Assembly: GCF_001613795.1 (NCBI RefSeq)
Contig: NZ_LPVZ01000020.1
Coordinates: 372,001 to 436,000, forward strand
Reading direction: 5' to 3'
DNA from: Thalassospira sp. MCCC 1A01148
GTDB lineage: Bacteria > Pseudomonadota > Alphaproteobacteria > Rhodospirillales > Thalassospiraceae
DNA: 64,000 bases
Position numbers and translations under genes: made by a program. This document shows positions 1 to 16,444 of the stretch, piece after piece. The notes beneath the pieces were generated by a model, which had not been told where the DNA came from, searched no databases, and saw only the letters and a list, made by a program, of their open reading frames with translations. Numbering within the stretch: position 1 is the stretch's first letter; every line of letters starts with the position of its first letter.

Positions 1-870
1 GTGCGCAAGGGGAGCCTTTCTGCAGCCGCGCAGGAGCTGAACTTGTCGCCGCCTGCTGTGAGCAAGCGTCTGGCAAAGCTGGAAGACCGTTTGGGGGTGC
101 GTTTACTGAACCGGACGACGCGGCGGATCAGTCTGACCAGCGAAGGGGATGCCTATTTTCAGAGTGCTGAGCAGATCATGCGTCAGATCGATGATCTTGA
201 ACAACGTGTGTCGCATGCCAGTGAGACGCCGTCAGGCCTGCTGCGGGTCAATGCAACATTTGGCTTTGGTCGGGAATACGTTGCGCCGGTTGTTTCGGAG
301 TTCTCCCACCTTTATCCGGAAGTCGAGGTGCAGCTGTTGCTGAGCGATATGCCGATGAACATGGTCGAGGAAGGAATTGATTTGGGGATCCGTTTTGGCG
401 GACTGCCCAATTCCCGAATTCGGGCGCGCAAACTACAGGGTAACAGGCGTTTTTTGTGCGCGGCACCGTCGTATTTGAAGCGGCATGGAACGCCCAAAAG
501 CCTCTCGGACCTTGCGCAACATAACTGCATCATCCTGCGCCAGGACAAGGATGTGCATGATCTGTGGAAATTGCAGCGCGGCCAGCATTCCGAGACGGTC
601 AAAGTGCACGGTACGCTGAGCAGTAATGACGGGGAGATCGCGTTACGTTGGGTTCTTGACGGGCATGGCATCATGATGCGTTCGGAGTGGGATATCAGCC
701 GTCATGTGAAACAGGACAGGCTAAGCCTTGTGCTGCCGCAATATGCTCATGTGGATGCCGATATCTATGCCGTATATCCGGAGCGTCACAACCTATCTGC
801 AAAGGTGCGGATTTTCATCGATTTTCTGCACCGAAAGCTTAGAGAAAAGGCCGCAGGAAGAGTCGAATAA
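1..870 (+). CDS. LysR-family transcriptional regulator (5' end missing)
   Basis: N-terminal winged helix-turn-helix (residues 1-55 here, with the usual SAAAQELNLSPPAVSKRLAKLE pattern) followed by a LysR effector-binding domain. Family members normally start about 10-15 residues earlier, with the helix leading into RKGSLS, so the true start lies before base 1 and the GTG at base 1 is probably an internal valine. The C-terminus is complete (TAA at 868-870). The target genes and ligand cannot be told from this window. Composition is closer to the core than the genes that follow, so it may mark the left border of the accessory region. Confidence 0.85.
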   Translation: MRKGSLSAAAQELNLSPPAVSKRLAKLEDRLGVRLLNRTTRRISLTSEGDAYFQSAEQIMRQIDDLEQRVSHASETPSGLLRVNATFGFGREYVAPVVSEFSHLYPEVEVQLLLSDMPMNMVEEGIDLGIRFGGLPNSRIRARKLQGNRRFLCAAPSYLKRHGTPKSLSDLAQHNCIILRQDKDVHDLWKLQRGQHSETVKVHGTLSSNDGEIALRWVLDGHGIMMRSEWDISRHVKQDRLSLVLPQYAHVDADIYAVYPERHNLSAKVRIFIDFLHRKLREKAAGRVE

Positions 871-961: not shown

Positions 962-1654
962 TCATTCATAGGGAAGCCTTTTAAAAGTTACCTTTGAAGC
1001 AGTATTCATCGCTCTCTGCCACATTCTGGCGGTCCATACGAGCCCACTCAATTCGTCTTTCCCAAAGTCGTATTCTAATCTGGCCGCTCCATAGAACTCA
1101 TTACTATCGGATACATTGTCAGTCATATTTTCTTGTTTAAAAATGTACAGGATCCCGGACTTCTGGAGGCCATTTTGAGCGAAAGGAATGATAGAAATTG
1201 TATTTGACTGCTTGATCGGCGTTACGCTGGCGGGGTTATACAAACTCATCTCTATCTTCCACCAACTCTGACGGATGTCAGCTTCAAGCTCCAATATACT
1301 CAAGTCGGCAAGCTCTGTTTCGCCGCAGTTGCGCATATCAAATTCATTTTCTTTTGATTGCGCAGCCTCAAGCAGTTGAAGCTGCCGGGGCCAGTTTGAA
1401 TGCAACTCAACTCTCCATTTTCCGTTTAGATCTGGAAAGAAGTGCACTGACAGCCAAGGTATTTTCGCCCAAACCCACCTCCAAACAGGGTTGAGCAGGA
1501 GCAAGTAAAGCATCACCCATACCATCAAAGGTATCGAGGTCAGCCCAATCGGCACGCCAAGTAGCTCTCCGTATGAGATCACAACCATACACAAGCCAAT
1601 TACTAGCCACGCGATTGCAAAGACGATGAACTTTTTAGGCAACATTCTGTACAT
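962..1654 (-). CDS. cap15: CBASS effector, Cap15-like (two membrane helices plus beta-barrel)
   Basis: About 230 residues. Two hydrophobic segments lie near the N-terminus (roughly residues 7-27 and 32-58), followed by a soluble beta-rich domain opening with FFPDLNGKWRVEL, the pattern of the Cap15 membrane-associated beta-barrel. Cap15 proteins bind a cyclic oligonucleotide and disrupt the inner membrane of phage-infected cells. Start chosen at ATG 1654, which has AAGGTGA just upstream; a GTG at 1663 overlaps that ribosome-binding site. The gene is divergent from the nucleotidyltransferase gene (76 bp apart), whereas CBASS effectors usually sit in the same operon. Family assignment rests on topology and one motif, so it is good but not certain. 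Confidence 0.72.
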   Translation of the reverse strand: MYRMLPKKFIVFAIAWLVIGLCMVVISYGELLGVPIGLTSIPLMVWVMLYLLLLNPVWRWVWAKIPWLSVHFFPDLNGKWRVELHSNWPRQLQLLEAAQSKENEFDMRNCGETELADLSILELEADIRQSWWKIEMSLYNPASVTPIKQSNTISIIPFAQNGLQKSGILYIFKQENMTDNVSDSNEFYGAARLEYDFGKDELSGLVWTARMWQRAMNTASKVTFKRLPYE

Positions 1655-1729
1655 GAGAGTCACCTTATAGGTTGTAGAGAATTTTAGAAAGCGCTAGTAT
1701 GAACAAAACGTGATCAGGAGCCATATGTT

Positions 1730-2917
1730 GTGACTTTAGCGAATGCACACGCTCTATTTTGTGGGCCATCGAACACTTCAAGCTTTCTCTCTAGCCTTAA
1801 TATCGACGATATCGATCGTGCGAAGTTACTTGCAGCGAGGAACAAAATTCGTAGCATTCTAAAAGCTTCTGCAGATACGTTGCTGAAGGACGACACGTTT
1901 TGGCAAGAGAGTTCGAAATTCAGGACATACAGACACTCTCGCCCAACAAGGGTAACGCTAAAGTTCATGACTCAGGGTAGCTTTTCCTACGGCACCTTGA
2001 ATATTCCGGCGCAATCTCCGAAGCAAGAAATCGATCTAGACGACGGAATGTATGTTCCTGTCGACTTTCTAGAAAATGGTGAGCCGGCACTAGCTGCAAA
2101 AGGCTTGTTTAGCTTTGTGACAAAATCATTATCAGATGCCTGCAGTCAAAACGGCTGGACTGTTAAAGAAAAGCGGAGCTGCGTTCGCGTACAACTGTGG
2201 CAAGGCGCACATATTGATATTCCCATCTACTCCATCCCGACAGAGAAGTTTGCTACTCTGAGAGCAGCGATGGACAGTGCTAATTTTGCGGAGGCAAATA
2301 TCTCCAGAGCGTATCTGTCGAATGATATGCGGATACCTTCGGACAAAATCATGTTGGCTCAGAGCGACGGCTCTTGGTTAAGGTCCGACCCGCAAGAGTT
2401 AGAAGAGTGGGTTAAAGCTCGGAAAGATAGGTTGGGCACCTGCTACACAAGACTTTGTCGCTTTTTCAAAGCATGGAGAGACTTTAATTGGCTGAGTTCT
2501 CCATTGTCGTCATTGTGCATTATGCGTGCAGTAGAAATCGCCCTTGAAGAGCTACCAGGCTTTCCCTCCCAGAACCGTGACGATGAACTTGTTATGTTAG
2601 TTGCAGAGAAGCTCCCCCTGATTTTGGGAAAGACAGTTCAAAATCCTGTTTTACGCGATTTGTCTCTTAACGATTGGGAAGAGAAAGATAGGGAGGCAAT
2701 TATCTCTGCGTCAGAAGAACTGTATGCAGAGATGCATTCTGCTTTAATGCAGACCGGTGATGCAACAAAGGTCGTAAACAAGCTGCGCGTTCGTTTTGGA
2801 GACAGGATTCCGAATAGACCAGACGTTGTGAAAATCGGCTCGAAGATAGAAGCCGTCCAAAAAGAGAAGCCTGCAACAGTGGCTGCGCCCGCTATCGTCG
2901 CTTCAACATCTGGGTAA
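1730..2917 (+). CDS. CBASS CD-NTase, DncV-like cyclic-oligonucleotide synthase
   Basis: 395 residues. The nucleotidyltransferase core shows GS at 83-84 (in TQGSFSYGTLN), the acidic pair D102/D104 (in EIDLDDGMY) and a third acid D163 (AHIDIPIY). The wording around these motifs is close to Vibrio DncV, so a clade-A enzyme making cGAMP-type dinucleotides is the best guess; the product is inferred. The start is GTG at 1730 with AGGAG nine bases upstream; the nearby ATG at 1725 runs straight into a stop. The C-terminal tail is flexible and Ala-rich and ends in glycine (ASTSG), as expected if Cap2 activates and conjugates the C-terminus. The stop overlaps the cap2 start (TAATG). Confidence 0.9.
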   Translation: MTLANAHALFCGPSNTSSFLSSLNIDDIDRAKLLAARNKIRSILKASADTLLKDDTFWQESSKFRTYRHSRPTRVTLKFMTQGSFSYGTLNIPAQSPKQEIDLDDGMYVPVDFLENGEPALAAKGLFSFVTKSLSDACSQNGWTVKEKRSCVRVQLWQGAHIDIPIYSIPTEKFATLRAAMDSANFAEANISRAYLSNDMRIPSDKIMLAQSDGSWLRSDPQELEEWVKARKDRLGTCYTRLCRFFKAWRDFNWLSSPLSSLCIMRAVEIALEELPGFPSQNRDDELVMLVAEKLPLILGKTVQNPVLRDLSLNDWEEKDREAIISASEELYAEMHSALMQTGDATKVVNKLRVRFGDRIPNRPDVVKIGSKIEAVQKEKPATVAAPAIVASTSG

Positions 2918-4581
2918 TGAATAAAACTCAATCCATTCAGATCATAGAAGCAACGCTATTAGACAAAGGCTTCAAATACATCGGCCCAGGACCGAGTGAT
3001 TACTCGGGGGTACTTGACGTCAATGGCAAGCAGATTGATGTAAAGCTCTCGATATCTGATGTTCGTTTTGCTGAGAAGCCTCGCGTTTCCCTGACTGACA
3101 GATCCCAAATTCCTCTTGAAACGCTCGCCCATATTGACAGCGGAGATGGGGGCATTTGTTACGTATCTGGCGCTGGCCTGCCTCTCGACATGTACCAACC
3201 AGGGGAAGCTATTTTACGGGTTTTAGAGGAGGTAACACGAACCCTGGGGCTTTCTTACAAAGGACGAGCCCAGCAAGAGTTCATAGATGAGTATCAGTTA
3301 TATTGGCGAGCAAAATATGGTGCCAGTGTTTTTCTCCCCCGATCGTCAGCAACGGGTGTAGTTGAAACAAGTGCTTTTTTCGCCAAGAAGGACGGCAAGG
3401 CTGAGTTTATCGCAATCAGAAGCTCGAAAAACTTGAGTGGCTACACTCTCTCATTTTTTGCAGAAGCTCAGATATGGTCTCTTTCTGAAAACATCGGCCC
3501 ATCAGTAAAGATTAAAGTACCTTTATATTACTCGGAGCTAAATGATTGGCTGAGCAGCCAGAAGTTAGCCGCCGAAATGAGCTGGTCGAAAGCCGAAAAC
3601 TTGCTTCTAAACGAAGGCTTACTAATCTTAGCTGCCCCCAACGCAGTTGTCGGCCTGCAGCTAGAAGTTCCGGCCCATTTAAAAAGTGCGGTCGACCGTA
3701 AACGTATTCGTAAAAGAAAACTTGCGGACCTGTTACGTAAAAACCAAAAAAATTTGAAGCTTCTTCGCTACTCATGCTCATGGTGTTCGCTTGAGGATAT
3801 TGCGTCCAGAAACTGTCTTGGAAGCCAAAACTTGAAAGAAACTTCTGTTGCTTTAGTTGGATGTGGGACCATTGGAGGTCACCTCGCCAAGATGCTTATC
3901 CAAAGCGGGGTCGGCAGTTCCGGAAAACTGTCTCTATTTGATAGAGATCGTTTGGCAGAAGGAAATATTGGCCGACACCTGCTCGGATTTGGTGATATCG
4001 GAAAAAACAAAGCGCTCGCTGTTAAAGCTGAGCTGGAGCGTTTTCATCCGGACGTTCAAGTCTTTGCGCACACTGGTGACGCGATGACAATGTGGGGGCA
4101 ACTTAAACAACACGATATAATCATCGACGCCACAGGTGAATGGAATGTTCAAACAGCTATTAATGATAGCTTCCTGAATGAAGACCGGGGGAACGTTAAG
4201 GCTCTAATCCATTCCTGGGTATTCATGAATGGAGCAGCTGTGCAGAGTTTTCTCAACTTAGGCGACGATTATGCTTGTTTCCGCTGCTTAAAACCGGACT
4301 TTGCAGGTCAGTGGCGCTATCCAGCAGGAAACGAGGATGAACCACTAAACCTCATGCCCGCTTCGTGCGGTGACGGGGCTTACGTACCATTTTCTGTCGA
4401 TGTTTCTACCATGGCAGCAAGTTTGGCCAATAAAGCTGTTCTTGACTGGGCAACAGGCAACCCCGGCCCACGCTTACGGACAGTTGTTATCGATTTTCAA
4501 CGCGGAAGAACGCAAAAACCTGTCTCACCAACACCATCCAAGCTCTGCCCTGCCTGCTCGCATTCAAGAGGCTCGCCTTGA
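2917..4581 (+). CDS. cap2: CBASS Cap2, fused E2-E1 ubiquitin-transfer-like protein
   Basis: 554 residues. An N-terminal E2-like domain (about 1-170) carries a candidate catalytic C81 in GGICYVSG. A linker leads to a C-terminal ThiF/E1 adenylation domain (about 290-554) with the nucleotide-binding loop VGCGTIGG at 311-322, a candidate E1 catalytic C484 in ASCGDGAYVP, and two CxxC pairs (C454/C457, C544/C547) that probably hold zinc. Cap2 attaches the C-terminus of the CD-NTase to cellular targets and so primes CBASS. The start overlaps the cdn stop by one base and the end overlaps cap3, so cdn-cap2-cap3 form one translationally coupled operon. Confidence 0.9.
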   Translation: MNKTQSIQIIEATLLDKGFKYIGPGPSDYSGVLDVNGKQIDVKLSISDVRFAEKPRVSLTDRSQIPLETLAHIDSGDGGICYVSGAGLPLDMYQPGEAILRVLEEVTRTLGLSYKGRAQQEFIDEYQLYWRAKYGASVFLPRSSATGVVETSAFFAKKDGKAEFIAIRSSKNLSGYTLSFFAEAQIWSLSENIGPSVKIKVPLYYSELNDWLSSQKLAAEMSWSKAENLLLNEGLLILAAPNAVVGLQLEVPAHLKSAVDRKRIRKRKLADLLRKNQKNLKLLRYSCSWCSLEDIASRNCLGSQNLKETSVALVGCGTIGGHLAKMLIQSGVGSSGKLSLFDRDRLAEGNIGRHLLGFGDIGKNKALAVKAELERFHPDVQVFAHTGDAMTMWGQLKQHDIIIDATGEWNVQTAINDSFLNEDRGNVKALIHSWVFMNGAAVQSFLNLGDDYACFRCLKPDFAGQWRYPAGNEDEPLNLMPASCGDGAYVPFSVDVSTMAASLANKAVLDWATGNPGPRLRTVVIDFQRGRTQKPVSPTPSKLCPACSHSRGSP

Positions 4582-5081
4582 CATATGTGTTAGTAGAAAA
4601 GTCGACATTACTAAGTTTAGAGAACAAGACTGAAGGCCAATCGGCCCAGAATGAACAAGGAGGTTTACTACTAGGTTACAGAAAGAAGTCAGGCCTTCAG
4701 ATCACTGGCTTTACACTTCCTCAAAGGTCAGACTTAGCGTCTCCGATGATTTTCAAGCGCAATTCAGAAGGACACGCGCAACTTGCTTTGAAAGCATGGG
4801 GGGAATCAAGAGGAACTGTCGACTGGATAGGGGAGTGGCATACTCATCCCGCCGGGAACTCGGCACCTTCAACAACAGACATAGCAAACTGGGTGAGGCT
4901 TTCAGAACATACAAAAAAACCAATGGTGTTCTTAATTTTATCTAAGCTTGGCTGGTATGTAGGCCTGCAACACCACTCTCCAAAGCGGCTAGTCCCATTG
5001 CAATGTATTGAGTCAAATTCCAATGCGGCCTTATTCGGAAAATGTCCGAACGATCACCAAAAAGTCAAATGCACACAATGA
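4578..5081 (+). CDS. cap3: CBASS Cap3, JAB/JAMM-family isopeptidase
   Basis: 167 residues. The JAMM zinc-protease signature is clear: a glutamate in NEQGGLLLG near residue 25, then EWHTHP followed by SAPSTTDIANW, giving HxH and the distal aspartate. Cap3 removes CD-NTase from its conjugates and counteracts Cap2. The start is TTG at 4578, overlapping the cap2 stop (TTGA), with AGAGG six bases upstream. The stop lies only 7 bp from the 3' end of a convergent tRNA gene, with no terminator hairpin between, so transcripts would run antisense into the tRNA. Confidence 0.9.
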   Translation: MTYVLVEKSTLLSLENKTEGQSAQNEQGGLLLGYRKKSGLQITGFTLPQRSDLASPMIFKRNSEGHAQLALKAWGESRGTVDWIGEWHTHPAGNSAPSTTDIANWVRLSEHTKKPMVFLILSKLGWYVGLQHHSPKRLVPLQCIESNSNAALFGKCPNDHQKVKCTQ

Positions 5082-5088
5082 AGAAGAA

Positions 5089-5165
5089 TGGTGGGCCCGG
5101 CGAGACTCGAACTCGCAACCAGACCGTTATGAGCGGTCGGCTCTAACCAATTGAGCTACAGGCCC
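5089..5165 (-). tRNA. tRNA-Ile2 (anticodon CAU), variant copy
   Basis: Complete 77-nt cloverleaf on the minus strand with encoded CCA, seven-base acceptor stem (GGGCCTG/CGGGCCC), anticodon loop CTCATAA and A73. C4:G69 and C5:G68 are the features TilS uses to pick tRNA-Ile2 over elongator tRNA-Met, so Ile2 is preferred. It differs from the copy at 14194-14270 at position 6, position 72 and throughout the T-arm, where the changes keep pairing (GCGAG/CTCGC against GGGGG/CCCTC). It is therefore a diverged gene, not a fresh duplicate. tRNA-Met is the alternative. Confidence 0.9.
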
Positions 5166-5262
5166 TACTCGAGCAAACGTTGGAGTGTAACGAATGGTCG
5201 ATACGCCGCCGTAAACTAGATAATTTCAGCCCAAGGTCAAGCGCAAACTCAGATCGCGATCA
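5166..5262. repeat. Diverged copy of the spacer upstream of tRNA-Ile2
   Basis: The stretch around 5212-5248 (AAACTAG, then a shared CCAAGGTCAAGC block) aligns with 14328-14361 next to rpoD. Similarity starts beside the tRNA and fades at the point corresponding to the rpoD stop codon. The hairpin present near rpoD is degraded here. This copy therefore derives from an rpoD-tRNA-Ile2 spacer of a related genome. Confidence 0.6.
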
Positions 5263-5318
5263 TGGACGTTAACGGCATGACCGGTGGATCAATTTGCCTC
5301 TGAAGCTTTGATTTCAAA

Positions 5319-5690
5319 CTAGTGAGCATTTTCAGCTTCAAGATATTCTTTTACCTGGAGAATGCCCTCAACACCTCTTTGCATCATTACTTCTAGGGCA
5401 CTCATCCCACTGAAGATTTGGTTGGGCTTTCTCACCCACTGATACCCTCTCCGTTTGTCGACAAAAAGCACCCTCAGCTGCGTATGAATGCCTAGCAACA
5501 AATGTGCCCGAAGCAACATATCTTCACTAGGACTTTGCTGCTCGTTCCCAAACGCTATCTCGTTGCAACCAAGCACAATCTGCGCTTCGGCATCCGTCAG
5601 TTCCCAGTTCTTAAGCAACCTTAAGGCCGCTCGGCACAATGCTTGAGCTTCCTTCTGAGTAAGTACGTTCTCCACCTGCCTTTTCGACAT
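5319..5690 (-). CDS. Xre/ParS antitoxin-like protein (DUF2384-type), orphan
   Basis: 123 residues, start at ATG 5690 with GGAGG six bases upstream (a GTG at 5696 is inside that site). An N-terminal helical part (WELTDAEAQIVLGCNE) resembles a divergent helix-turn-helix. The C-terminal segment (SGMSALEVMMQRGVEGILQVKEYLEAE) matches the pattern of the MbcA/ParS/Xre toxin-binding domain. Such antitoxins normally pair with a RES-domain toxin, but none lies next to it. Together with the similar protein at 6248-6697 it may serve as a regulator of the mobile element. Family call is by eye. Confidence 0.55.
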   Translation of the reverse strand: MSKRQVENVLTQKEAQALCRAALRLLKNWELTDAEAQIVLGCNEIAFGNEQQSPSEDMLLRAHLLLGIHTQLRVLFVDKRRGYQWVRKPNQIFSGMSALEVMMQRGVEGILQVKEYLEAENAH

Positions 5691-5730
5691 CCTCACCTCC
5701 AGTGGGGAGCACTGAACTCACCAATATCAC

Positions 5731-6124
5731 TGAACACCCCCTGGAATTGTAGAAACCCGGTTTGATCAGATTTGTCGTCTTTCGAATTCGACGGGTGACT
5801 GCATCCCGTTGGTACTATGTTTGCTCTTCGGATTGTAGAACAGTTCTATGTAATAGAGGCTCCCTGCCGTGCTTCATCCCCTGATTTATGGACCCTGCGG
5901 CGAAAGCGTTTGCGTTTAACCGTGTTGAAGAAACTTTCGGCAACAGCATCGTCACAGCAGTTCCCAAGGCGGCTCATACTATGTTCAAGATTGTGCTGAC
6001 GAAGGAAAACGGCCAGTCGGGCAACACTGTTCGGACCGCAACTCTTTCCCATATCCGGCGAACCAGAGCGGGCTACCTTTTGGCGGAAACTTTTACGGGA
6101 TTGTATCCGAGGCTCTTTGTACAC
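5731..6124 (-). pseudogene. IS3-family transposase (OrfB) C-terminal remnant
   Basis: The minus strand encodes the end of an IS3-family DDE transposase: HSMSRLGNCCDDAVAESFFNTVKR in one frame (about 6020-5870), then YYIELFYNPKSKHSTNG and SPVEFERRQ in another frame ending at 5766. A single indel near 5850-5870 separates them. The upstream part, including the first catalytic aspartates, is missing or unrecognisable. A TGAACACCCC sequence at 5731 looks like the preserved IS terminus. The element is dead; it may have destroyed part of the surrounding mobile element. Confidence 0.75.
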
Positions 6125-6247
6125 CCAAAGTGAATCTCCACCCCGCCTTGTTGGTCACCTAAAAGGAGATAGTTGGTCATTGGCGAGGGCAAGACATGAC
6201 ACGGTGTGGTATCCTGAAAGCCTCCAAGACAACTACAGGCAAGACAA

Positions 6248-6697
6248 ATGCCGCCGAATGTTCCGCTAAATCTCGAAGAACCAGGTCAACGTTTGACCGA
6301 GGTTGCATTGAAAGCATTAACTCGGATCTTCGTTGAATGGAGGCTCTCTCAAACAGAAGCTGCGGCTATCGCTGACTTGTCAGCAAGCAGCTGGAAGCGT
6401 ATTGAAGCCGGCGACTACAACAGGAAACTAAGCAAAGATCAGATGTTGAGGATCGGCAACATTGTTGGGATCTACAAGTGCCTGAAGCTATACTTCAATG
6501 AACCGATAGCATCGAAATGGATTAGCCTCGAGAATGACGGACCTCTTTTCCGGGGACAGAGACCGGTAGACAGCTTGATAGAGCAAGGACTTCCGCAGTT
6601 CTTTAGGGTACGCACCTATTTAGGTGCATTACTAGCAGGACAAGATCCTGATTTGACCATTGAACCTGAACAACTAGAAAACTGCTTTCATACCTAA
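6248..6697 (+). CDS. Second Xre/ParS antitoxin-like protein (DUF2384-type), orphan
   Basis: 149 residues with a clearer helix-turn-helix (LSQTEAAAIADLSASSWKRIEAGD) and a C-terminal toxin-binding-like segment (RPVDSLIEQGLPQFFRVRTYL). It is distantly similar in layout to the protein at 5319-5690, encoded on the opposite strand. No RES toxin gene is adjacent. The ribosome-binding site is weak (AGGCAAGACA). It could regulate the transposition genes or be the survivor of a toxin-antitoxin pair; the sequence cannot decide. Confidence 0.55.
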   Translation: MPPNVPLNLEEPGQRLTEVALKALTRIFVEWRLSQTEAAAIADLSASSWKRIEAGDYNRKLSKDQMLRIGNIVGIYKCLKLYFNEPIASKWISLENDGPLFRGQRPVDSLIEQGLPQFFRVRTYLGALLAGQDPDLTIEPEQLENCFHT

Positions 6698-6746
6698 CCG
6701 GGCTGTTCCTCGGCTCTGATCGCGATCAGCCGGTCGCTCTGATACG

Positions 6747-7049
6747 TCACTGTGAAACACCCCTCTCATTCAGCAAACGCGTCAACCGGTTTCTGAAACG
6801 CGACAATTCATAGATCCACTGCTTCCGCACAACCTCGACGACCTTCAGCCTTTGATCCGGGCAGTTAACAAAGTAACTCTCAGCTGCGGCAATCAACCTT
6901 TCCGCAGTGACCGGGAGCTTTGACCGCAAAATCAATCCAGCAACGTCAAAGACATTTGCTTCGATCTGGTTGGTTGCACGCTCGTGTTCGCCACGGGCGA
7001 CGGCAACGCATTTTTCCAACAAATCATCTTCAAAATCTCTAGCCGGCAT
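6747..7049 (-). CDS. Small helical protein of unknown function
   Basis: About 100 residues, predicted mostly helical, with many charged residues and no membrane segment, signal peptide or metal motif. Start taken at ATG 7049; a GTG two codons earlier is possible and neither has a strong ribosome-binding site. It lies between the second Xre-like gene and the transposition module, on the same strand as the module. I do not recognise the family, and the coding status is less certain than for its neighbours. Confidence 0.45.
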   Translation of the reverse strand: MPARDFEDDLLEKCVAVARGEHERATNQIEANVFDVAGLILRSKLPVTAERLIAAAESYFVNCPDQRLKVVEVVRKQWIYELSRFRNRLTRLLNERGVSQ

Positions 7050-7184
7050 TGGCACACCATTATTCAGAGAAGCTTCGAACTACACCACGGAAGGGCTGCA
7101 TGCCAAATCAACCGATTAGAATTGCGAATGCAGGCAAAGCTAATTATCAATAGCTCGCTGTTTAGCGCTCGAACATCGTTACAT

Positions 7185-8123
7185 TCACAGTCTTTCAAGT
7201 AGAGCGTTCAGTTTTCCCGCGCCTCGTGAATAAAGTGGCACCAAGCTGGCGACATCTGCTGTTTCTTCCAGTAAGCGTGGCAAGAAACTCTCAAACTGCT
7301 CTCGACGTAAACCTTGAGTTTTGATCTGATCAATCACGCCTTCGAGATCACTAGCGCACGCGGCGAAGAACACGACTTGCTCCATGACATCTCTCATTAA
7401 CTCCCCGGAAAAAGTACCCTCGAAAAGATCAACCAGCGACGAAGCAAATTCGTCATTCAGTGCAACGCTTGGAAGAGTCTTACCAAGATTCTCTTTGTAT
7501 GAGCCAACTTCAAGCGCTTTCCCCCCAAGATCGTAAAGCACGAAAACCTTGATACCGGGGGCCTTCACGGAAGGTCTGACGCTAAACCACCCACCTGACT
7601 GATTAAAATAGCATTGCCCAAAAACGAATGGTTCGCTCTTGGCGCACTCAAACAAAACCTTAGGTCCGGCCCTGAAAACCTCGTCTCGGAATGCTTTGAT
7701 GTTTTCTGGCGGGTTGACAAGCGTAAGGCGAACTTCATCGGGAGCGGCGAAACCAACTATCGAGGCATACAACGAAGTACGACCAGACAGTCCAAGACTG
7801 TGATCTTGCATAAATCTACGTGAAAGTGCGCTTACAACAGTTTTTATATCTGCTGGTTTGTGACCGTTAAGAAAAGCGCCCTTACGCTTGTGTTCATTCC
7901 GCTTAGTGATCAGCTTCCTACATTCAACCTCAAGCCATGAACCATGAGATGACGCCAGTGCTTCGATGAACTCGAGCTCATCTACCGTCAACTCCGCAAG
8001 GATATCATGGAACCTCCATCCCCGCTCATAGGCGTTTAGCATTTCTTGCTCACTCAAGCGCCTTTCTCTGTTTCCCTGCCAGAGCAGTGCACGCAAGAAC
8101 GGCAACTCGGGTTGAATTGCCAT
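7185..8123 (-). CDS. Fifth gene of the Tn7-like module, unknown function
   Basis: 312 residues from ATG 8123, which has GGAGGAG seven bases upstream; longer readings overlap tniQ and lack a site. It lies 31 bp after the tniQ stop, on the same strand. The N-terminal third is helical and charged; the middle has beta-like stretches (KVFVLYDLGGKALEVGSY); no TniQ zinc ribbon, ATPase or nuclease motif is visible. Its place after tniQ matches tniE of Tn6022-like elements or tnsE of Tn7, but I see no sequence evidence that it belongs to either family. A targeting or regulatory role is inferred from position only. Confidence 0.7.
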   Translation of the reverse strand: MAIQPELPFLRALLWQGNRERRLSEQEMLNAYERGWRFHDILAELTVDELEFIEALASSHGSWLEVECRKLITKRNEHKRKGAFLNGHKPADIKTVVSALSRRFMQDHSLGLSGRTSLYASIVGFAAPDEVRLTLVNPPENIKAFRDEVFRAGPKVLFECAKSEPFVFGQCYFNQSGGWFSVRPSVKAPGIKVFVLYDLGGKALEVGSYKENLGKTLPSVALNDEFASSLVDLFEGTFSGELMRDVMEQVVFFAACASDLEGVIDQIKTQGLRREQFESFLPRLLEETADVASLVPLYSRGAGKLNALLERL

Positions 8124-8154
8124 GGTTTGACTCCTCCGACTAAAGCGAACTAGC

Positions 8155-9717
8155 TCACACCGGGTCATACTCCACAGCGGCCTCATTGCCAAAAATCTTC
8201 TTGAGGGCAGTTGGGTCCACCCCAAACTTGAGAAAGCCTCGCTCAGTTTGAGAATACATGAGCAACTCGACCTCCCCGTTTCTGATCATATCCAGAAGCT
8301 TCACATACGAGAGGCCTTGCTTATTATACTTTCGAACGGCAGCAACCAACTGCACGGGATCAGAGCTTTGCTCCTCCAGACTTTCCTCAAGTTCATGGAG
8401 AAACCCGGCAAGCACGTCCTTATCAAATTGCCAACTGTGGTGTCCATCCAAGTCTGGGGAGTGATAGGGCGTTAGGAACCCTGCTTTGACAAGGGTCTTC
8501 AGAGTGTGCAGAGAGACCGACAGCATATACGCAGCGGACTTAATCCCAATCAGCCGTCGCTTCAAGTCGAGGTAGGCTTCAATACTCTCGTGCGTAACAA
8601 ACCGCTGGACGCTCTGACCTCTTCGAACCGCGATTGTCTTGAGCATACCTTTTCTCATCAGTCTTGACAGCGTACTCTTTCCAACTCGCAAACAAACACG
8701 GGCATCTGATCCGCAAGCAAGCCATTTGTGACGCCCTGGCTTGGGAGCGACTTTACCAACGAGGCTTTGCAATTTGCCCTTCGCTAACAGACCAAGACAT
8801 TCCTCAAAACCCCGGAAGATAGTCGGGAATTGCGACTGATTGCTCTCAGCACAATGATACAACCGCGCAAAACGCTCGGCAAAAAAAGACGAACCAGAAT
8901 AGTTGTCGATCGGTACAATCAATTTTCCGAGATATCGCATGAAACCCTGAGGCCAATCGGCAAGAGCGTCAGCTGCAGTTGCAACTTGAGCTATAACTCT
9001 ATCTTCACTCATCCGGCAGTATCCTCGGCCATCAACCCTGCCACCTATATGCAGAGACGATCCCAGCAATACGATTGTCTCAATCGCTTCACGAAGAGAA
9101 GCCTGCTTTAGTTCTTCCGGAAATCCATATTTATCCGCCCTAAAGTCAGTCCCTACAAACTTGTTGGAAAGAAGTCTTAGCAGTCCAACATGGGCTTCTG
9201 AAATTGTAGGCTTATTCCACTCTTGAAAATCCATACAGCTACAGAAATCCACTGTTGTACGAGAATACCCTGCCTCCTCGTCACATTCTGAACATGTACT
9301 GCGCAGTTTGCACCCATGCTTCGGACAATGGGTCACAAATCGTAAGTCCCAAGCTGCTGAGAGATAGCCACTCTCCCGAGCGCATTGTGAACAGATCTCT
9401 TTTGTTGGCCACTTGAGAAAGTAGCGCGAGATCATTTCACCATTCTCTATCAGAACCTTGGAATGATTGCCTTCGACTGTATTTAAGGGCGCTAACCTAC
9501 TAATCTCTTCAAGAGGTTGCTGCAAAGCGTATGCAAGTGCCGGCAACCCCTTCTTCCAAGTTGAAGGCTTCATTGTCGCATAGGTCAAACCCGCAAGGCT
9601 CAAAATCCACCCTGAACTCTCGTAGCAATTGGTATCAGCAACTCTGATTAGGTAACCGATCAAGCTCTCGCCACGTATCGGCGGAGAAGGAATTGATACA
9701 GCCTCAGAACGGTCCAT
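8155..9717 (-). CDS. tniQ: TniQ/TnsD-family target-selection protein
   Basis: 520 residues. The N-terminus has the TniQ signature (PSPPIRGESLIGYLIRVAD), followed near residues 105-150 by a zinc-finger-like run (CSQC, then CPKHGC and CSEC). The long C-terminal part contains two segments resembling helix-turn-helix motifs (around ACGSDARVCLRVGKSTLSRL and ISVSLHTLKTLV-like text). TnsD-size TniQ proteins bind a chromosomal attachment site and recruit TnsC. The module's end sits just beyond a tRNA-Ile2 gene, so that tRNA is the inferred target. Overlaps tnsC by 14 bp, implying coupled translation. Confidence 0.9.
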   Translation of the reverse strand: MDRSEAVSIPSPPIRGESLIGYLIRVADTNCYESSGWILSLAGLTYATMKPSTWKKGLPALAYALQQPLEEISRLAPLNTVEGNHSKVLIENGEMISRYFLKWPTKEICSQCARESGYLSAAWDLRFVTHCPKHGCKLRSTCSECDEEAGYSRTTVDFCSCMDFQEWNKPTISEAHVGLLRLLSNKFVGTDFRADKYGFPEELKQASLREAIETIVLLGSSLHIGGRVDGRGYCRMSEDRVIAQVATAADALADWPQGFMRYLGKLIVPIDNYSGSSFFAERFARLYHCAESNQSQFPTIFRGFEECLGLLAKGKLQSLVGKVAPKPGRHKWLACGSDARVCLRVGKSTLSRLMRKGMLKTIAVRRGQSVQRFVTHESIEAYLDLKRRLIGIKSAAYMLSVSLHTLKTLVKAGFLTPYHSPDLDGHHSWQFDKDVLAGFLHELEESLEEQSSDPVQLVAAVRKYNKQGLSYVKLLDMIRNGEVELLMYSQTERGFLKFGVDPTALKKIFGNEAAVEYDPV

Positions 9718-10672
9718 TTTCGAACTCCACCTGCTGCTGTTTCGGAAGCCTCCGCCCAGTTCTCGGTTTCCGTTTAACTTCTTGTGGCGGCCTAGCGGCA
9801 GAGGTATCCAACTCCCTAATGTCTACTTCCAATTCTTCCAGGGCACACTGCAAATGCAGCTCAGTAAGCGTTGTACTATCCGAGAGCATTGCGATCTCAA
9901 CAGCCCGGTGAATGATCTTTGTGATACTACCAATCAGCCCTTTGCAAGATCTCGCCAGTCCCAACATGACATCGTTTTTTAGCAGGACTGATTCCGCCGG
10001 GTCCGGTAGAGGTAACTCCATGTTCATGAAGTGGAACAACATAAGGAGCTCTTTTGCTCCGCCCTTGGTCGAGGGATCAAACGGCAAAAGTTCGATACGC
10101 GCTCGACGACGGGTTGCCAATTGCGGGTTCAACAGAAATATCTCGTTGACCTCAGGAAGACCCGCGACAAGTACTGGCCTACGCAGGATTTCCAACTGCG
10201 TTTTTAGCCAGTCCGCACTGTCATATCTGCGTGCTTGGCTGCCTTTGTTTGTCAAATGCTGAAATTCATCAAAGATGAGCATCTCAACACTGGCGTGATC
10301 CGCAATCTTCGTAATCCGCTGCTCCATTGACTCAAGCGTCCCCTTGGTCGCACACGGATCCCCTAATGCATGGAGGATACGGGAGGCTAGGTTTTTGATG
10401 GTACAACTCTGCGGGATGACAATAGAAAGAACCCGATTGCGAACATCTCCGCTATTCGCAGTCGAACAGAAGTTTTCAATTACTGACGATTTCCCAGCCC
10501 CGGTTTCACCGACGAGCGTCGTGATCCCTGGCGCGCTAGCTTGGACACCAGAGATGTGAAAGTTTGCTATTCTGGCCGTAGCTTGCTGAAACTGGCTGTG
10601 GTGGACCCGGCGATTTTGGAACGCAGCCAACTGGCGTGCCTGCTGTTTGGTTAGCAACTTTACATCACTCAT
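9704..10672 (-). CDS. tnsC: TnsC/TniB-family AAA+ transposition ATPase
   Basis: About 322 residues. Walker A VGETGAGKSS at 56-65 and Walker B LIFDEFQH at 134-141, with an arginine-rich segment after residue 190 (ATRRRARIELLPF). TnsC polymerises on target DNA and passes the target signal from TniQ to the TnsAB transposase. Start at ATG 10672 (AGGAGG five bases upstream) in preference to a GTG two codons earlier. The start overlaps the tnsB stop. Confidence 0.9.
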   Translation of the reverse strand: MSDVKLLTKQQARQLAAFQNRRVHHSQFQQATARIANFHISGVQASAPGITTLVGETGAGKSSVIENFCSTANSGDVRNRVLSIVIPQSCTIKNLASRILHALGDPCATKGTLESMEQRITKIADHASVEMLIFDEFQHLTNKGSQARRYDSADWLKTQLEILRRPVLVAGLPEVNEIFLLNPQLATRRRARIELLPFDPSTKGGAKELLMLFHFMNMELPLPDPAESVLLKNDVMLGLARSCKGLIGSITKIIHRAVEIAMLSDSTTLTELHLQCALEELEVDIRELDTSAARPPQEVKRKPRTGRRLPKQQQVEFENGPF

Positions 10673-12713
10673 CGTCACCTCCTGCTTTACGGGGTGGCGA
10701 CGTCGATCTCCAATGCGACCGTTCGATCTCTGCTATGATCTCATCAGATGAAAAATCAAAAACTGGAATGGGCGATTCACCGCATTCTTTCCCGTCAGTT
10801 GCTGTGTCCAAGTTGGTTACCACATCAGCGGCAATTTCTTCTCGAAGATACCGATGCGCTCTATTGCGCTGCGTTTTCCTCTTGCTACGCTTCACTTTCT
10901 GGGCGAGTTCGAAAGTCGTCGTGCGTGCGTTTAGAAGCGCTTCTTCCGAGTGCTTGCGTGCACCATTAGTCTCTTTGGAAACTACACTCCGCACCAACTT
11001 ATGCCGCCAAACCGATAAACCGTCTGCATACGCTGCGTACAGGCATCTTGCCGGTAAGAAAACTCGGTTCTGCGTGTCCTCAACATAGACAGTGAGTAGG
11101 TTTTCTGGATCGTATTTCACGCGGACTTTTGGGTTGCCCCCCAAGTTCATTTTTCCAGTCATCAGCCGACGATAAAGCAGTTGAATCGCTTCTGACTGGA
11201 ATTGCAGATTGAACAACCGCACACCTATCCGCGAAAGCGTACATGTTTCGACGCACGAAGTCAGAACGCTTAAATCTTCCAAATTGCTCAGGAGACGGAC
11301 CGGATGCTTTTCTGTGCCTCTTGTCCATCTTCGAATGGGGCAGTCTCTGATCCCTTCGTGATAGGTGTTTGGGTACTCATCCACCACAAACTTCGTCACA
11401 AGCAACATCAGATCTTGAATAGTAAGCTTTGCGTTCTTTTCGGATTGGTAGTCACCGCGCTGTTGAGTGTTGGAAAAGGTTGTCCCATCAAGCGTATGGA
11501 TCAGCTTTGAATTGAGCGTTTCAAAAAAACGCTCGACCTTCCCTTTGTAGCGTGGCTTTCGTTTCGGGTTGTATTCAATAGAAATTCCAAGCTGACTTAA
11601 GGCATCAAGCAAATTCTGTGAGTGGAACTCCAGACCATTATCTACAACCAAATCAGCGATCATTCCAAAACAAGGCCATTCATATTCAATGTCAGCTTCT
11701 ATTTCATTGCCGCCTTGGGCTTTGAATTCATCAAGAACGGTCTGAATGAACTTGTCCTTTGGAGGTATGGCATTTCTCAAACATCTCATGACTGAACGAT
11801 ATGAGGGTGGTTCAGGGCTCATATCAAACCCGACCACCATGCGGCTGTAGCTGTCTATCGCTAACGTCAACCAAACGCGCCCCATGACATCTCCGTTTGG
11901 GTAGACAACTAATAGATCAATCAGATGGTGATCTATCTCGACCCGCTCCAGCGGATAGTTCGTACTCACCCCCGAACCAACAGGACCAAACTTCTGATCT
12001 GCCGCTTGTTGCCCATGGTGGGCCAGTAGCACCTCATATGGGTCCAGCTTGCTTAGGTACCGGTAAACTGTCCGACGGCTGGGAGCTTTTAACTTCATGC
12101 CAACTGCCGCAGTCTCATTCTCCTTTTTTATTCGACGACAGATAGCCCGATAAATCTCTGTTCCAGTACTGTATTCAGGCTTCAGATACCGTTCATGCAC
12201 AATCTCCCAAACGATACTTTCAAGTCGATTGTCAAAACGCATATGCTGCGGGCCCTTGAAGCAATTTCTAGGCAACAAGGCACGAATATCTCTCCCGCCA
12301 GAGACCCAGGATTTGTACCAGCGTATTAGAGTGCGCTTGGAAGGAATGTCATCACGACCTTCTTTGTCACAACGCCTAATTACGCAACCAACCGCTTGAT
12401 TGAGGTTTCTTGCGCCTGAAGCTCCATCCACCTGCTTGACAAATGTGAGTCTGGCTCGGGCTTCAGCTCGCTCCTGATCACTAAAAGAGTCAAAGGAGAC
12501 CAACTGGTGCTGAGCACAATTGGTAGAGGCACACAAAATCTCCGCTTCACCATCAAACACAGCCTGCGCAATCTCTTTAGACGGTATAAGCATCGGCTCG
12601 CCGGTATCCAGACTACTGAGATGAACGTCTTGGTTTTCGGTCAAAGTCACGACCTTGTATTGCGCGCCATGAAAGGCTAGGCGAGAGCCTTCTGGAAGAT
12701 GAATTCTCGTCAT
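10665..12713 (-). CDS. tnsB: TnsB-family DDE transposase
   Basis: 682 residues. N-terminal DNA-binding helical domains, then an RNase H-fold catalytic core with D261 (VEIDHHL), D358 (VVDNGLEF) and E394 (GKVERFF); the D-to-E spacing of 35 fits the DDE family. A C-terminal beta-barrel and a basic tail follow (KVKRSKRKTQRNR), the tail probably contacting TnsC. TnsB binds the repeats in the transposon ends and cuts and joins the 3' strands. Starts within the tnsA stop (ATGA overlap). Confidence 0.92.
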   Translation of the reverse strand: MTRIHLPEGSRLAFHGAQYKVVTLTENQDVHLSSLDTGEPMLIPSKEIAQAVFDGEAEILCASTNCAQHQLVSFDSFSDQERAEARARLTFVKQVDGASGARNLNQAVGCVIRRCDKEGRDDIPSKRTLIRWYKSWVSGGRDIRALLPRNCFKGPQHMRFDNRLESIVWEIVHERYLKPEYSTGTEIYRAICRRIKKENETAAVGMKLKAPSRRTVYRYLSKLDPYEVLLAHHGQQAADQKFGPVGSGVSTNYPLERVEIDHHLIDLLVVYPNGDVMGRVWLTLAIDSYSRMVVGFDMSPEPPSYRSVMRCLRNAIPPKDKFIQTVLDEFKAQGGNEIEADIEYEWPCFGMIADLVVDNGLEFHSQNLLDALSQLGISIEYNPKRKPRYKGKVERFFETLNSKLIHTLDGTTFSNTQQRGDYQSEKNAKLTIQDLMLLVTKFVVDEYPNTYHEGIRDCPIRRWTRGTEKHPVRLLSNLEDLSVLTSCVETCTLSRIGVRLFNLQFQSEAIQLLYRRLMTGKMNLGGNPKVRVKYDPENLLTVYVEDTQNRVFLPARCLYAAYADGLSVWRHKLVRSVVSKETNGARKHSEEALLNARTTTFELAQKVKRSKRKTQRNRAHRYLREEIAADVVTNLDTATDGKECGESPIPVFDFSSDEIIAEIERSHWRSTSPPRKAGGDDE

Positions 12714-13345
12714 TTCCCTGCCCCCTCGTCCACGAGTTCGACAGTGGACATCATCCCGATCTTCTCATCCAGATTGAGCTTGAGTTGTCCAGTTGCGACC
12801 AGCGTCAAAGCGTCTTCAAGGGTCGCCTCATCGCCTATGATTTCCACCAAATCCCGAATCAGGCAATTTCCTGAGCTTCGTAAATAGCCCCTGAACCTAT
12901 TTGCACAGAACTTTGGAGACGCGCTAAGGCGGTGAGGACTAAGGGACTTAACGTTTGAACGTCTTGGTTCACGCCGAATGTCATCTTCTGTCCAGATCTC
13001 GAACTGATAGCCTTTTTCGGCTAACACCGTTTCGATAACCGGGAACCGCTTCAAATTCTCGGGCTTCCCAAGATCGCGCTTGGGTTTGACCTCAATCACT
13101 TTCTGACCGAAGCCCCCAGTGATCAAGATGTCCGGAAAATATACTCTGTCTCGACCATCAAATTGATAAGTCAATTTGAATGGCTGCACAGCAATATCAT
13201 CCACTTCAGGAATAAGATCGAGAATGATGAGGGCGTCTCTCTCAAGCTGAGATTCCCAGGGAAGCAGACGTTTGGCCTTACGACTGTAGTAAAGCCCGTG
13301 AACTCTCCCTTTGCTGCGGCTTACAACTTGGCGTACCGGTTTCAT
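12710..13345 (-). CDS. tnsA: TnsA-family transposon endonuclease
   Basis: 211 residues. Restriction-enzyme-like fold with the expected acidic residues: E in LPWESQLERD, D in VYFPDILI and the EVK in QKVIEVKPK. A C-terminal winged-helix part follows. TnsA cuts the 5' strands so that the element leaves by cut-and-paste rather than forming cointegrates. First gene of the module, with GGAG about ten bases before ATG 13345, transcribed away from the transposon end at 14182. Confidence 0.9.
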   Translation of the reverse strand: MKPVRQVVSRSKGRVHGLYYSRKAKRLLPWESQLERDALIILDLIPEVDDIAVQPFKLTYQFDGRDRVYFPDILITGGFGQKVIEVKPKRDLGKPENLKRFPVIETVLAEKGYQFEIWTEDDIRREPRRSNVKSLSPHRLSASPKFCANRFRGYLRSSGNCLIRDLVEIIGDEATLEDALTLVATGQLKLNLDEKIGMMSTVELVDEGAGK

Positions 13346-13600
13346 GATAAGTTTCTCCTTCGCATGAAGCAGGCAAGGCTCACCCGTGGCGTGCTGACAC
13401 GCAGTGCTTGCCTTGGATTTGGCAACGTGCTAAAGGAAAAGGTGCAAACTATATCGCTTTAGCGACGTGAATGGCCGGTTCAGTTATCTGGATCGGTTTT
13501 TTGCGTTTATGGGCCTCCCTTTACGGATTTATTTCGACCACCATAATCCTGCTACAGGCATTTTTGTCAACGCGCCCACAAGGTAGAATATCTACCCTTG
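13346..13600 (-). promoter_or_regulatory. tnsA upstream region
   Basis: Untranslated stretch between the tnsA start and the AT-rich repeat cluster. It holds TTGTCAACGCGCCCACAAGG at 13565-13584, which resembles one unit of the terminal repeat (TTGTCACGTGCCACAAAAG) in the opposite orientation. It could be an internal TnsB site for autoregulation. No clear promoter was identified. Confidence 0.3.
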
Positions 13601-13630
13601 ATTGCATCTGATTCTTTTTAAAAACTGTCA

Positions 13631-13842
13631 ATTCTGTATTACCCATCCATATCCAGTCTAAAATTCCCAAATCAATTTTTACAGAATACATATAAATACA
13701 TAATCATTTCTGTATCAAAATTAGGGATATGTCAGTTCACTGGAAGCGATCTAAATATGGTATGCCCTTCAACAAGCAACAGATATTTTTATGTATTTCC
13801 CAAAATAGATCCAAATTCTGTATCCATTTCAAAAATACATAA
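13631..13842. repeat. AT-rich cluster of TGTAT/ATACA boxes upstream of tnsA
   Basis: ATTCTGTAT-type boxes occur at 13631, about 13707 and 13815; ACAGAATACA (inverse) at 13681; AAATACATAA at 13694 and 13833; and its inverse TTATGTATTT at 13789. Spacing is irregular, so it is not a CRISPR array. It looks like a set of operator sites in the tns promoter region, perhaps for one of the Xre-like proteins. No gene was seen between 13346 and 14193. Confidence 0.45.
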
Positions 13843-14112
13843 TTCAACCTATGGTTTAACTTTGATTTAAAATGACGTGGTCTAAATAGCCAATTTTAGG
13901 CTAAGCCAGCTTGGAAAAGACCTGATGCTGATTGAATAGCGAAAAGACTCGGGGCTGCTTTGTGAGTTTACGCTCGTATTGAGACGCCGTAGGACCGACC
14001 ACGTCAAACTCCGGACGCGGGTTTCTAGTCTATGCGAACAACGAACCAGCTAATCACCGTTTCGTTGATGCTCTAAACATAGATGAGAAGAAGCTAGCCG
14101 CCGTAGAGCGAA

Positions 14113-14182
14113 ATCGTTGTCAACTTCTTGGCACGAATGACAGCTTTTATGGCACGAATGACAACTTTTGTGGCACGTGACA
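14113..14182 (-). repeat. Transposon end with three TnsB-site-like repeats
   Basis: On the plus strand three copies of TGGCACGAATGACA-type units lie at about 14130, 14152 and 14171, spaced 21-22 bp. The outermost is two bases shorter (TGGCACGTGACA) and ends at 14182. An inverse GTTGTCAAC lies just inside, at about 14117. Repeated 20-22-bp sites with a terminal TGT/ACA are the hallmark of Tn7-like ends. Confidence 0.75.
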
Positions 14183-14193
14183 ATTATTACCCG

Positions 14194-14270
14194 TGGTAGG
14201 CCCGGAGGGACTTGAACCCCCAACCAGACCGTTATGAGCGGTCGGCTCTAACCAATTGAGCTACGGGCCC
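14194..14270 (-). tRNA. tRNA-Ile2 (anticodon CAU), likely resident copy and insertion target
   Basis: Complete 77-nt cloverleaf with encoded CCA, anticodon loop CTCATAA, A73, and the C4:G69 and C5:G68 pairs that favour lysidine-modified tRNA-Ile2 over elongator tRNA-Met. The acceptor stem closes with a G1-U72 wobble. It lies directly downstream of rpoD, and the Tn7-like end begins 11 bp beyond its 3' terminus. Confidence 0.9.
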
Positions 14271-14324: not shown

Positions 14325-14377
14325 CCGAAAACTAGCGATTTTCGGGCCAAGGTCAAGCCCGAACGTCGCGTAATTTC

Positions 14378-16444
<2,067 letters not shown>

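Follow-up and report, generated by a model that had tools for sequence, protein, structure and literature searches.

Why does a transposon that inserts beside a transfer RNA (tRNA) gene carry a variant of that same gene within itself? This question is raised by a stretch of 64,000 nucleotides (nt) of Thalassospira sp. MCCC 1A01148 (C20:372001-436000, here called the window), in which a Tn7-like transposon of 31,609 base pairs (bp) lies next to the single-copy tRNA-Ile2(CAU) gene just after rpoD and holds another tRNA-Ile2(CAU) gene. We refer to the gene after rpoD as the resident tRNA and to the other as the on-board tRNA. The answer that we tentatively favour, and that could well be correct, is that the on-board gene is a functional tRNA-Ile2 kept by the element, most likely as a spare for its single-copy target.

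The resident tRNA (14194..14270) and the on-board tRNA (5089..5165) both lie on the minus strand. A previous reading of the letters without database searches (the sequence-only reading) had described them as two intact genes with a CAU anticodon, and this was confirmed by ARAGORN and by the Rfam tRNA model, with scores of 64.9 and 66.6 bits, respectively. ARAGORN labels both genes tRNA-Met by their anticodon, and the Ile2 identity was deduced from the sequence type. The two tRNAs are 91% identical. The D and anticodon arms are the same in both and the T-arm differs with base pairing kept, as had been noted; in addition to five differences in the T-arm, nt 6 and nt 73 also differ, which gives seven in all. 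The T-stem of the on-board gene reads GCGAG/CTCGC. When the on-board and resident tRNAs were aligned with four from other genera, each of the five distinct rows had standard pairs at all 21 stem positions, and three T-stem pairs were altered on both sides. The observed pairing was attained by 3 of 500 shuffles of this alignment, the sequences of which are related.

Both genes are preceded by a promoter of the form TTGACC-N16-TAGTTT on the minus strand, at 14329..14356 for the resident tRNA and at 5213..5240, 75 nt upstream, for the on-board tRNA. The pattern TTGAC-N17-TAGTTT, which was picked after inspecting these upstream regions, matched ten times in 970,890 nt of tracts (both strands), each time upstream of a tRNA-Ile2 gene. 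Six of the matches precede resident genes and four precede on-board genes, which accounts for all four on-board genes found; here the pattern stands 74-76 nt upstream, while most of the other upstream sequence differs. The sequence-only reading had reported a match of about 95 bp upstream of the two tRNAs, reaching to the rpoD stop. The similarity is indeed above chance (global score 15 against a maximum of 7.5 in 500 shuffles), but its best-conserved part is the shared promoter block of about 30 nt and not a copied tail of rpoD.

The transposon spans 14182 to C20:354574 (direct coordinates). Its R end (14123..14182, minus strand) carries TGTCACGTGCCACAAAAG and further TnsB-type repeats, and the partner L end, TGTCAGGTGCCACAAAAG, lies outside the window at C20:354574, which corresponds to window position -17426, about 17.4 kilobases (kb) to the left. 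A 5-bp target-site duplication, ATAAT when read on the minus strand, was found beside the R end at 14183..14187, with its twin copy beside the L end at C20:354569-354573. These paired ends with repeated TnsB-type sites and a 5-bp duplication are those of a Tn7-like element, and the gene content agrees, with a TnsA-type endonuclease, a TnsB transposase, a TnsC/TniB ATPase and a TniQ/TnsD selector. The corresponding genes share the minus strand with the R end leading: tnsA (12710..13345; Tn7_TnsA-like_N, PF08722, E 6.6e-12), tnsB (10665..12713; rve and Mu-transpos_C, with PF09299 at 1.9e-7 above the cut-off and PF00665 at 3e-6 below it, 27.8 vs 32.6 bits), tnsC (9704..10678; TniB and AAA_22, PF05621, 2e-21) and a tniQ/tnsD-like target selector of 520 amino acids (8155..9717; TniQ domain, PF06527, 2.5e-13). 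The earlier placement of a Tn7-like module between the two tRNAs as its boundaries has to be abandoned: with the element running from 14182 to C20:354574, the tRNA at 5089-5165 is internal, 9.0 kb away from the R end, and the adjoining antiphage genes are cargo. We also do not regard the two tRNAs as the boundary of a tyrosine-recombinase island, because transposon ends and a 5-bp duplication mark its borders, and the second tRNA is a complete gene in the interior; a tRNA 3'-end repeat forming such a boundary was not seen, and no search for integrase genes was made.

The locus was compared in 29 Thalassospira genomes, among which G000 is the window's own genome, G001 T. alkalitolerans, G002 T. 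profundimaris 35 and G006 T. lucentensis. A resident tRNA-Ile2 gene was read behind rpoD (14378-16444 in the window, minus strand, named from sequence alone) in 28 of them, and in G002 the contig breaks inside it. R ends were found 7-12 nt beyond the CCA of the tRNA in 7 of the 28 readable genomes, so that the insertions at these seven resident sites keep a short, fixed spacing from the tRNA gene; in G000 the distance is 11 nt. The tns genes were contiguous with the resident-site R end in three of the seven (G000, G006 and G023) and were located on another contig in G001, and G010, G019 and G025 had such an R end with no tnsB passing our search. The R end of one of the two G002 elements (G002a) adjoins the L end of another element and not a tRNA. 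In G000 the terminator hairpin of the resident tRNA is split, with its first half outside the R end and its second half outside the L end, and an unsplit hairpin of the same type was seen in G016. Among relatives, the target duplication was TTCGA in G006, and the R flank in G023 was equal to none of the L flanks examined. We take TniQ as the presumable reader of the tRNA gene because of what is known of its family and because of the 7-12 nt spacing at the seven resident sites. Its C-terminal region has an HTH_17 match. The predicted structure was weak overall (predicted local distance difference test, pLDDT, 64; predicted template modeling score, pTM, 0.38), with residues 381-510 at pLDDT 83-94, and comparison with the PDB gave TniQ matches and a weak TnsD match at template modeling scores of about 0.15-0.33; because of this overall weakness and these low scores the model is used in a supporting role.

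A search with tnsB gave 14 places in 11 genomes, and six of these places in five genomes make up one transposon family (G000, G001, G002 twice as G002a and G002b, G006 and G023). The five relatives are 44-54% identical to the tnsB of the window, and the next-best matches after the family are 34-38% identical. The best tniQ matches fell at the same six places, with the five relatives 31-34% identical. Four of the six members contain an extra tRNA. In each of them it follows tniQ on the strand of that gene, at distances of 182, 862, 885 and 2,989 nt; the T-stem is the same in all four copies, and all four gave a clean tRNA call. The flanks of the four copies differ; the on-board tRNAs of G001 and G002b are the same over 86 nt, and the rest of the two tracts aligns only in two stretches, one of about 80 nt and one of about 155 nt. 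Extra tRNA-Ile2 genes (at least 89% identity, best 14 candidates per genome scored) were found five times, in G000, G001, G002 (two) and G028. The G028 copy (L037 8568-8643, G028:C1) is a tRNA-Ile2-like gene of different sequence outside the transposon family, and no tnsB was found on its contig in the tnsB search. The on-board type occurred only inside this family (4 copies in 3 of the 29 genomes), which upholds the earlier suggestion that the element carries its own variant tRNA, and among the best 14 candidates of each of the 29 genomes no element-free strain with both copies was found.

In a TnsB tree, from which the outgroup rows L076 and L082 had been dropped for a stop codon and for which the tool warns of long branches, the family formed a single clade (100/99) with a deep split and with the tRNA on both sides of it. 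The simplest reading is therefore that the tRNA was present in the common ancestor, and it is probably ancestral to the family. The DNA similarity between G002b and G006 ends inside tniQ, and the tRNA missing in G006 may therefore have been lost through exchange of the segment beyond tniQ. Among 80 TnsB loci, which extend at most 10 kb to each side, the best TnsB from outside the genus was just 32% identical. At 5 of the 80 loci aragorn called a tRNA; four of these loci are from Thalassospira, and the tRNA at the fifth is a tRNA-Ala. Searches of plasmids gave no close tnsB relative (all below 60%), and none of their tRNA matches exceeded 92%. If its copy works, the family suggests that the core genes of a transposon may include a tRNA gene, which would then be more than random cargo.

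Under the explanation that we favour, a Thalassospira family of Tn7-like elements, led by its own TniQ (TnsD-like), would insert 7-12 nt past the single-copy tRNA-Ile2(CAU) gene behind rpoD, and the core of most known members would be tnsA-tnsB-tnsC-tniQ-tRNA, including a functional and expressed variant of the target tRNA. The element would retain this gene for the usefulness of the tRNA product, as a spare of the AUA-reading tRNA for a cell whose resident gene it binds and cuts beside; in G000 the insertion would strip the resident gene of its terminator. Promoter, cloverleaf and compensatory base changes favour a functioning tRNA product, and a spare for the target is favoured because the carried tRNA is the same as the target, the target is single-copy and the terminator is split. 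The borders of the element, its insertion site, the internal location of the tRNA, its presence in four of six members and the conserved promoter and cloverleaf are observed; that the on-board tRNA is expressed and acts as a spare we infer, and a backup role for the resident gene is plausible. Several observations weigh against this explanation. The resident tRNAs beside the element look intact, so that the need for a spare is hypothetical. Doubly changed T-stem pairs are unexceptional, as 35 of the 500 shuffles attain their number. Two of the six members, G006 and G023, lack the on-board tRNA and yet persist, and no single contig joins the tRNA-bearing element to the resident tRNA in G001 or G002. 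Finally, a scar resembling the sequence 3' of an on-board tRNA, described below, fits a role as attachment site. A more elaborate idea seems unlikely to us, namely that the family evolved a spare-part strategy in which a promoter-driven, altered version of the essential target tRNA would keep host AUA decoding going whatever the fate of the target, with the selector of the element recognising the altered DNA only poorly.

The scar belongs to an alternative in which the on-board tRNA is a portable attachment site, a landing pad for sibling elements that would allow nesting and cargo build-up; we regard this too as unlikely. Immediately outside the L end at C7:8569 of G002 is a sequence that resembles the one following the on-board tRNA of G002a, beginning at position +3. 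The two agree at 25 of 28 nt, the best match among 25 flanks compared, and the score of 22 compares with at most 13 for 19,948 windows drawn at random from the same contig. The tRNA that would border this insertion on its far side is missing from the assembly. The scar suggests that an on-board-type copy has served as a target. An end-like TGTCGAGTGCCAGA 80 nt beyond the G002a on-board tRNA and the many stacked L ends downstream of resident tRNAs also speak for a portable site. However, a DNA site needs neither a promoter nor compensatory stem changes, no element end was found within 12 nt of the 3' end in any of the four on-board tRNAs, and the target gene survives a Tn7-like insertion intact, which makes an additional site superfluous.

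The stacked L ends are, moreover, better explained by breakpoints at a motif, TTGTCATAATTCGGG. The locus is an insertion hot spot. The end pattern matched in 20 of the 29 genomes, with the R end only in G010 and G019, so that 18 genomes have an L-type end; it had no match in the other nine. Several L-type ends were often found downstream of one tRNA (G006, G016, G023, G026, G002 C7 and others), and where an R end was seen beside a resident tRNA there was never more than one. From 45 hand-picked loci, which are no complete census, we took 43 L-type ends after dropping 2 R-type ends before the count. A tRNA-Ile2-like 3' flank followed 27 of the 43 (score of at least 20, a threshold set after seeing the scores), compared to 5 of 645 null windows of the same loci. 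The motif, at up to 3 mismatches, lay within 150 nt of 21 of the 43 L-type ends (null 13 of 860). G012 has the same 77 nt after its resident tRNA and after an L end 29 kb away, and the identity stops at the motif end. The longer form of the motif, the near-palindrome CCGAATTGTCATAATTCGGG, marks cassette boundaries in the rpoD-tRNA-Ile2 island; it is located at 872-891 of the window and at C20:364939-364958 of G000, and was found downstream of the resident tRNA in 9 of 28 genomes. At no more than 1 mismatch it had six matches in the four genomes searched: two in G000, both within the element, four in G002, all on its contig C7, which bears the array, and none in G006 or G023. We take the motif to be a breakpoint for cassette exchange by a putative recombinase and possibly its att site, a matter separate from that of the second tRNA.

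Two other sources of the stacked ends were rejected. Recombination between resident and on-board tRNA genes as the main source was discarded on the on-board T-arm being present in none of the 28 readable resident genes, and tandem stacking alone on only 2 of the 43 L-type ends being directly followed by an R end (G002 C7:37566 and G006 C20:715). Directly abutting L and R ends were observed at L237 (G006:C20:698-744), 11 nt apart, and at G002 C7:37549-37583, sharing one base. Between the two motif copies inside the element (window 1-870; L038 7613-15371) are LysR, tricarboxylate-transport-like and dehydrogenase-like genes, named from their translations. Related DNA of the LysR-side part of this cassette was found in 13 further Thalassospira genomes, and among 18 loci the motif was near just the window's own copy. 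The genomic CCA end of the resident tRNA is CCG in G003, G005, G009, G013, G020 and G024; these genomes carry a TGGAGCAGTG/TGCAGCAATG-type 3' flank, and the flank turnover begins at the last tRNA base.

Phages carry tRNAs that help translate their genes. The on-board tRNA could in the same manner aid translation of AUA-rich tns and cargo genes, which we consider rather improbable. In mechanically picked open reading frames (ORFs), AUA amounted to 7.4 per 1000 codons in the G002a element (89/12,048) and to 7.4 in the G000 element (67/9,071), against just 2.8 in the host ORFs of the window (39/14,075). The G000 counts carry a small error: the joined G000 tract has base C20:357500 doubled, with two ORFs near it artificially cut and oriented coordinates above 34,501 one too high. 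The members without the tRNA, however, have more AUA, at 10.0 (51/5,087) and 10.6 per 1000 codons (75/7,092), the latter count being affected by the uncertain far boundary of the G023 element, and AUA demand as the sole reason was rejected on this ground. It would moreover be coincidental, under this alternative, for the tRNA on board to be the one targeted.

The sequence-only reading had proposed an edited decoy: its changed T-arm would conceal the on-board gene from TniQ of the same element, and the gene would still serve as a backup for the resident tRNA. Of the seven substitutions, six do fall towards the 3' end of the gene, on the side facing the insertion point, with RNA pairing kept, and 0 of the 4 copies has an insertion within 12 nt. 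On the other hand, the G002 scar suggests that an on-board copy was hit. The acceptor stem of the on-board tRNA is common to all four aligned tRNA-Ile2 of other genera, and its differences from the resident tRNA are therefore probably inherited and not selected for escape. We hold such a decoy to be quite improbable. The T-stem GCGAG/CTCGC was found in none of the four. In an order-level sample, 203 of 248 genomes matched the on-board tRNA at E 1e-16 or better. Among the matches listed, nine genomes outside the genus were 95-96% identical to it and the others 90-94%; the resident tRNA, at 91%, is about as far from the on-board tRNA as the latter. From these comparisons a foreign or anciently diverged origin is possible, and so is the earlier proposal that the tRNA was brought from a related genome, its identity to the nine genomes being set against 91% to the resident tRNA. 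A passive hitchhiker, captured once with neighbouring DNA and without a role for the element, would fit the absence of the tRNA in G006 and G023, the end of the G006-G002b similarity inside tniQ and the differing flanks around the four copies, but promoter, cloverleaf and position are retained in 4 of 4 copies across diverged elements, which makes it very improbable.

Tn7 targets glmS and has tnsABC with a TnsD-like selector, a 5-bp duplication, TGT-type ends and repeated TnsB sites. The Thalassospira element is alike in its tnsABC, in a selector of similar size, in the 5-bp duplication and in TGT-type ends with repeated TnsB sites; unlike Tn7, it targets an RNA gene and carries a copy of its target. 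Phage- or virus-borne tRNA genes resemble it in that a mobile element carries a functional tRNA (here functional as judged from its sequence), whereas the tRNA carried by the Thalassospira element is its own integration target. Homing of TniQ/TnsD to tRNA genes is known from type I-B2 and I-D CRISPR-associated transposons (CAST) and related cyanobacterial Tn7-like elements, according to the available text of the reports (PMC11406308, PMC10293859), so that the targeting of a tRNA is not new. As described there, these elements share with ours the Tn7-like machinery, TniQ/TnsD and insertion downstream of a tRNA gene. The Thalassospira element differs from them in its separate tnsA and tnsB, in its tRNA-Ile2 target, in insertion 7-12 nt past CCA in comparison to about 30-33 nt past tRNA-Leu in CyCAST, and in the on-board copy of the target tRNA, of which the available text of the two reports makes no mention (PMC11406308, PMC10293859). 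In tRNA-borne islands and tycheposons (available text of PMC10872708) cargo likewise accretes beside a tRNA, with a tRNA at the border, but these use tyrosine recombinases, while the Thalassospira borders are Tn7-like ends with a target duplication and the extra tRNA is internal. The literature searched, which gave partial coverage with few subscription papers or preprints, yielded no Tn7-like element described as carrying a copy of the tRNA that it targets. Tn7-like elements are described, in the available part of one report, as using safe sites and leaving the attachment site intact (PMC8649781). If our explanation is true, a working copy of the target tRNA would reveal a hidden cost of homing beside an essential RNA gene, or would make the gene portable. 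The target and its non-identical copy also form a natural pair for mapping how TniQ/TnsD reads a tRNA gene.

The remaining cargo in the window includes a type II cyclic-oligonucleotide-based antiphage signalling system (CBASS) at 962..5081, in which a Cap15-like effector with two transmembrane segments, a DncV-like cyclase (CD-NTase), an E1-E2 protein (Cap2) and a JAB protein (Cap3) are present together. It stops 7 nt short of the on-board tRNA. The ORF after tniQ (7188..8153, minus strand) is matched by PADLOC AbiEi models over residues 9-77, and it had no Pfam family and no counterpart in the five other members of the transposon family. Between tniQ and the tRNA, Xre/MbcA/ParS-type antitoxin-like genes are located at 5319-5696 and 6248-6697, with no obvious toxin, and antitoxin-like genes were also seen by eye near the on-board tRNA in G002. 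The same genome has, at G000:C10:325-4123, one more Tn7-like pair of tnsB and tniQ, which is distant from that of the element (36% and 23% identical, respectively).

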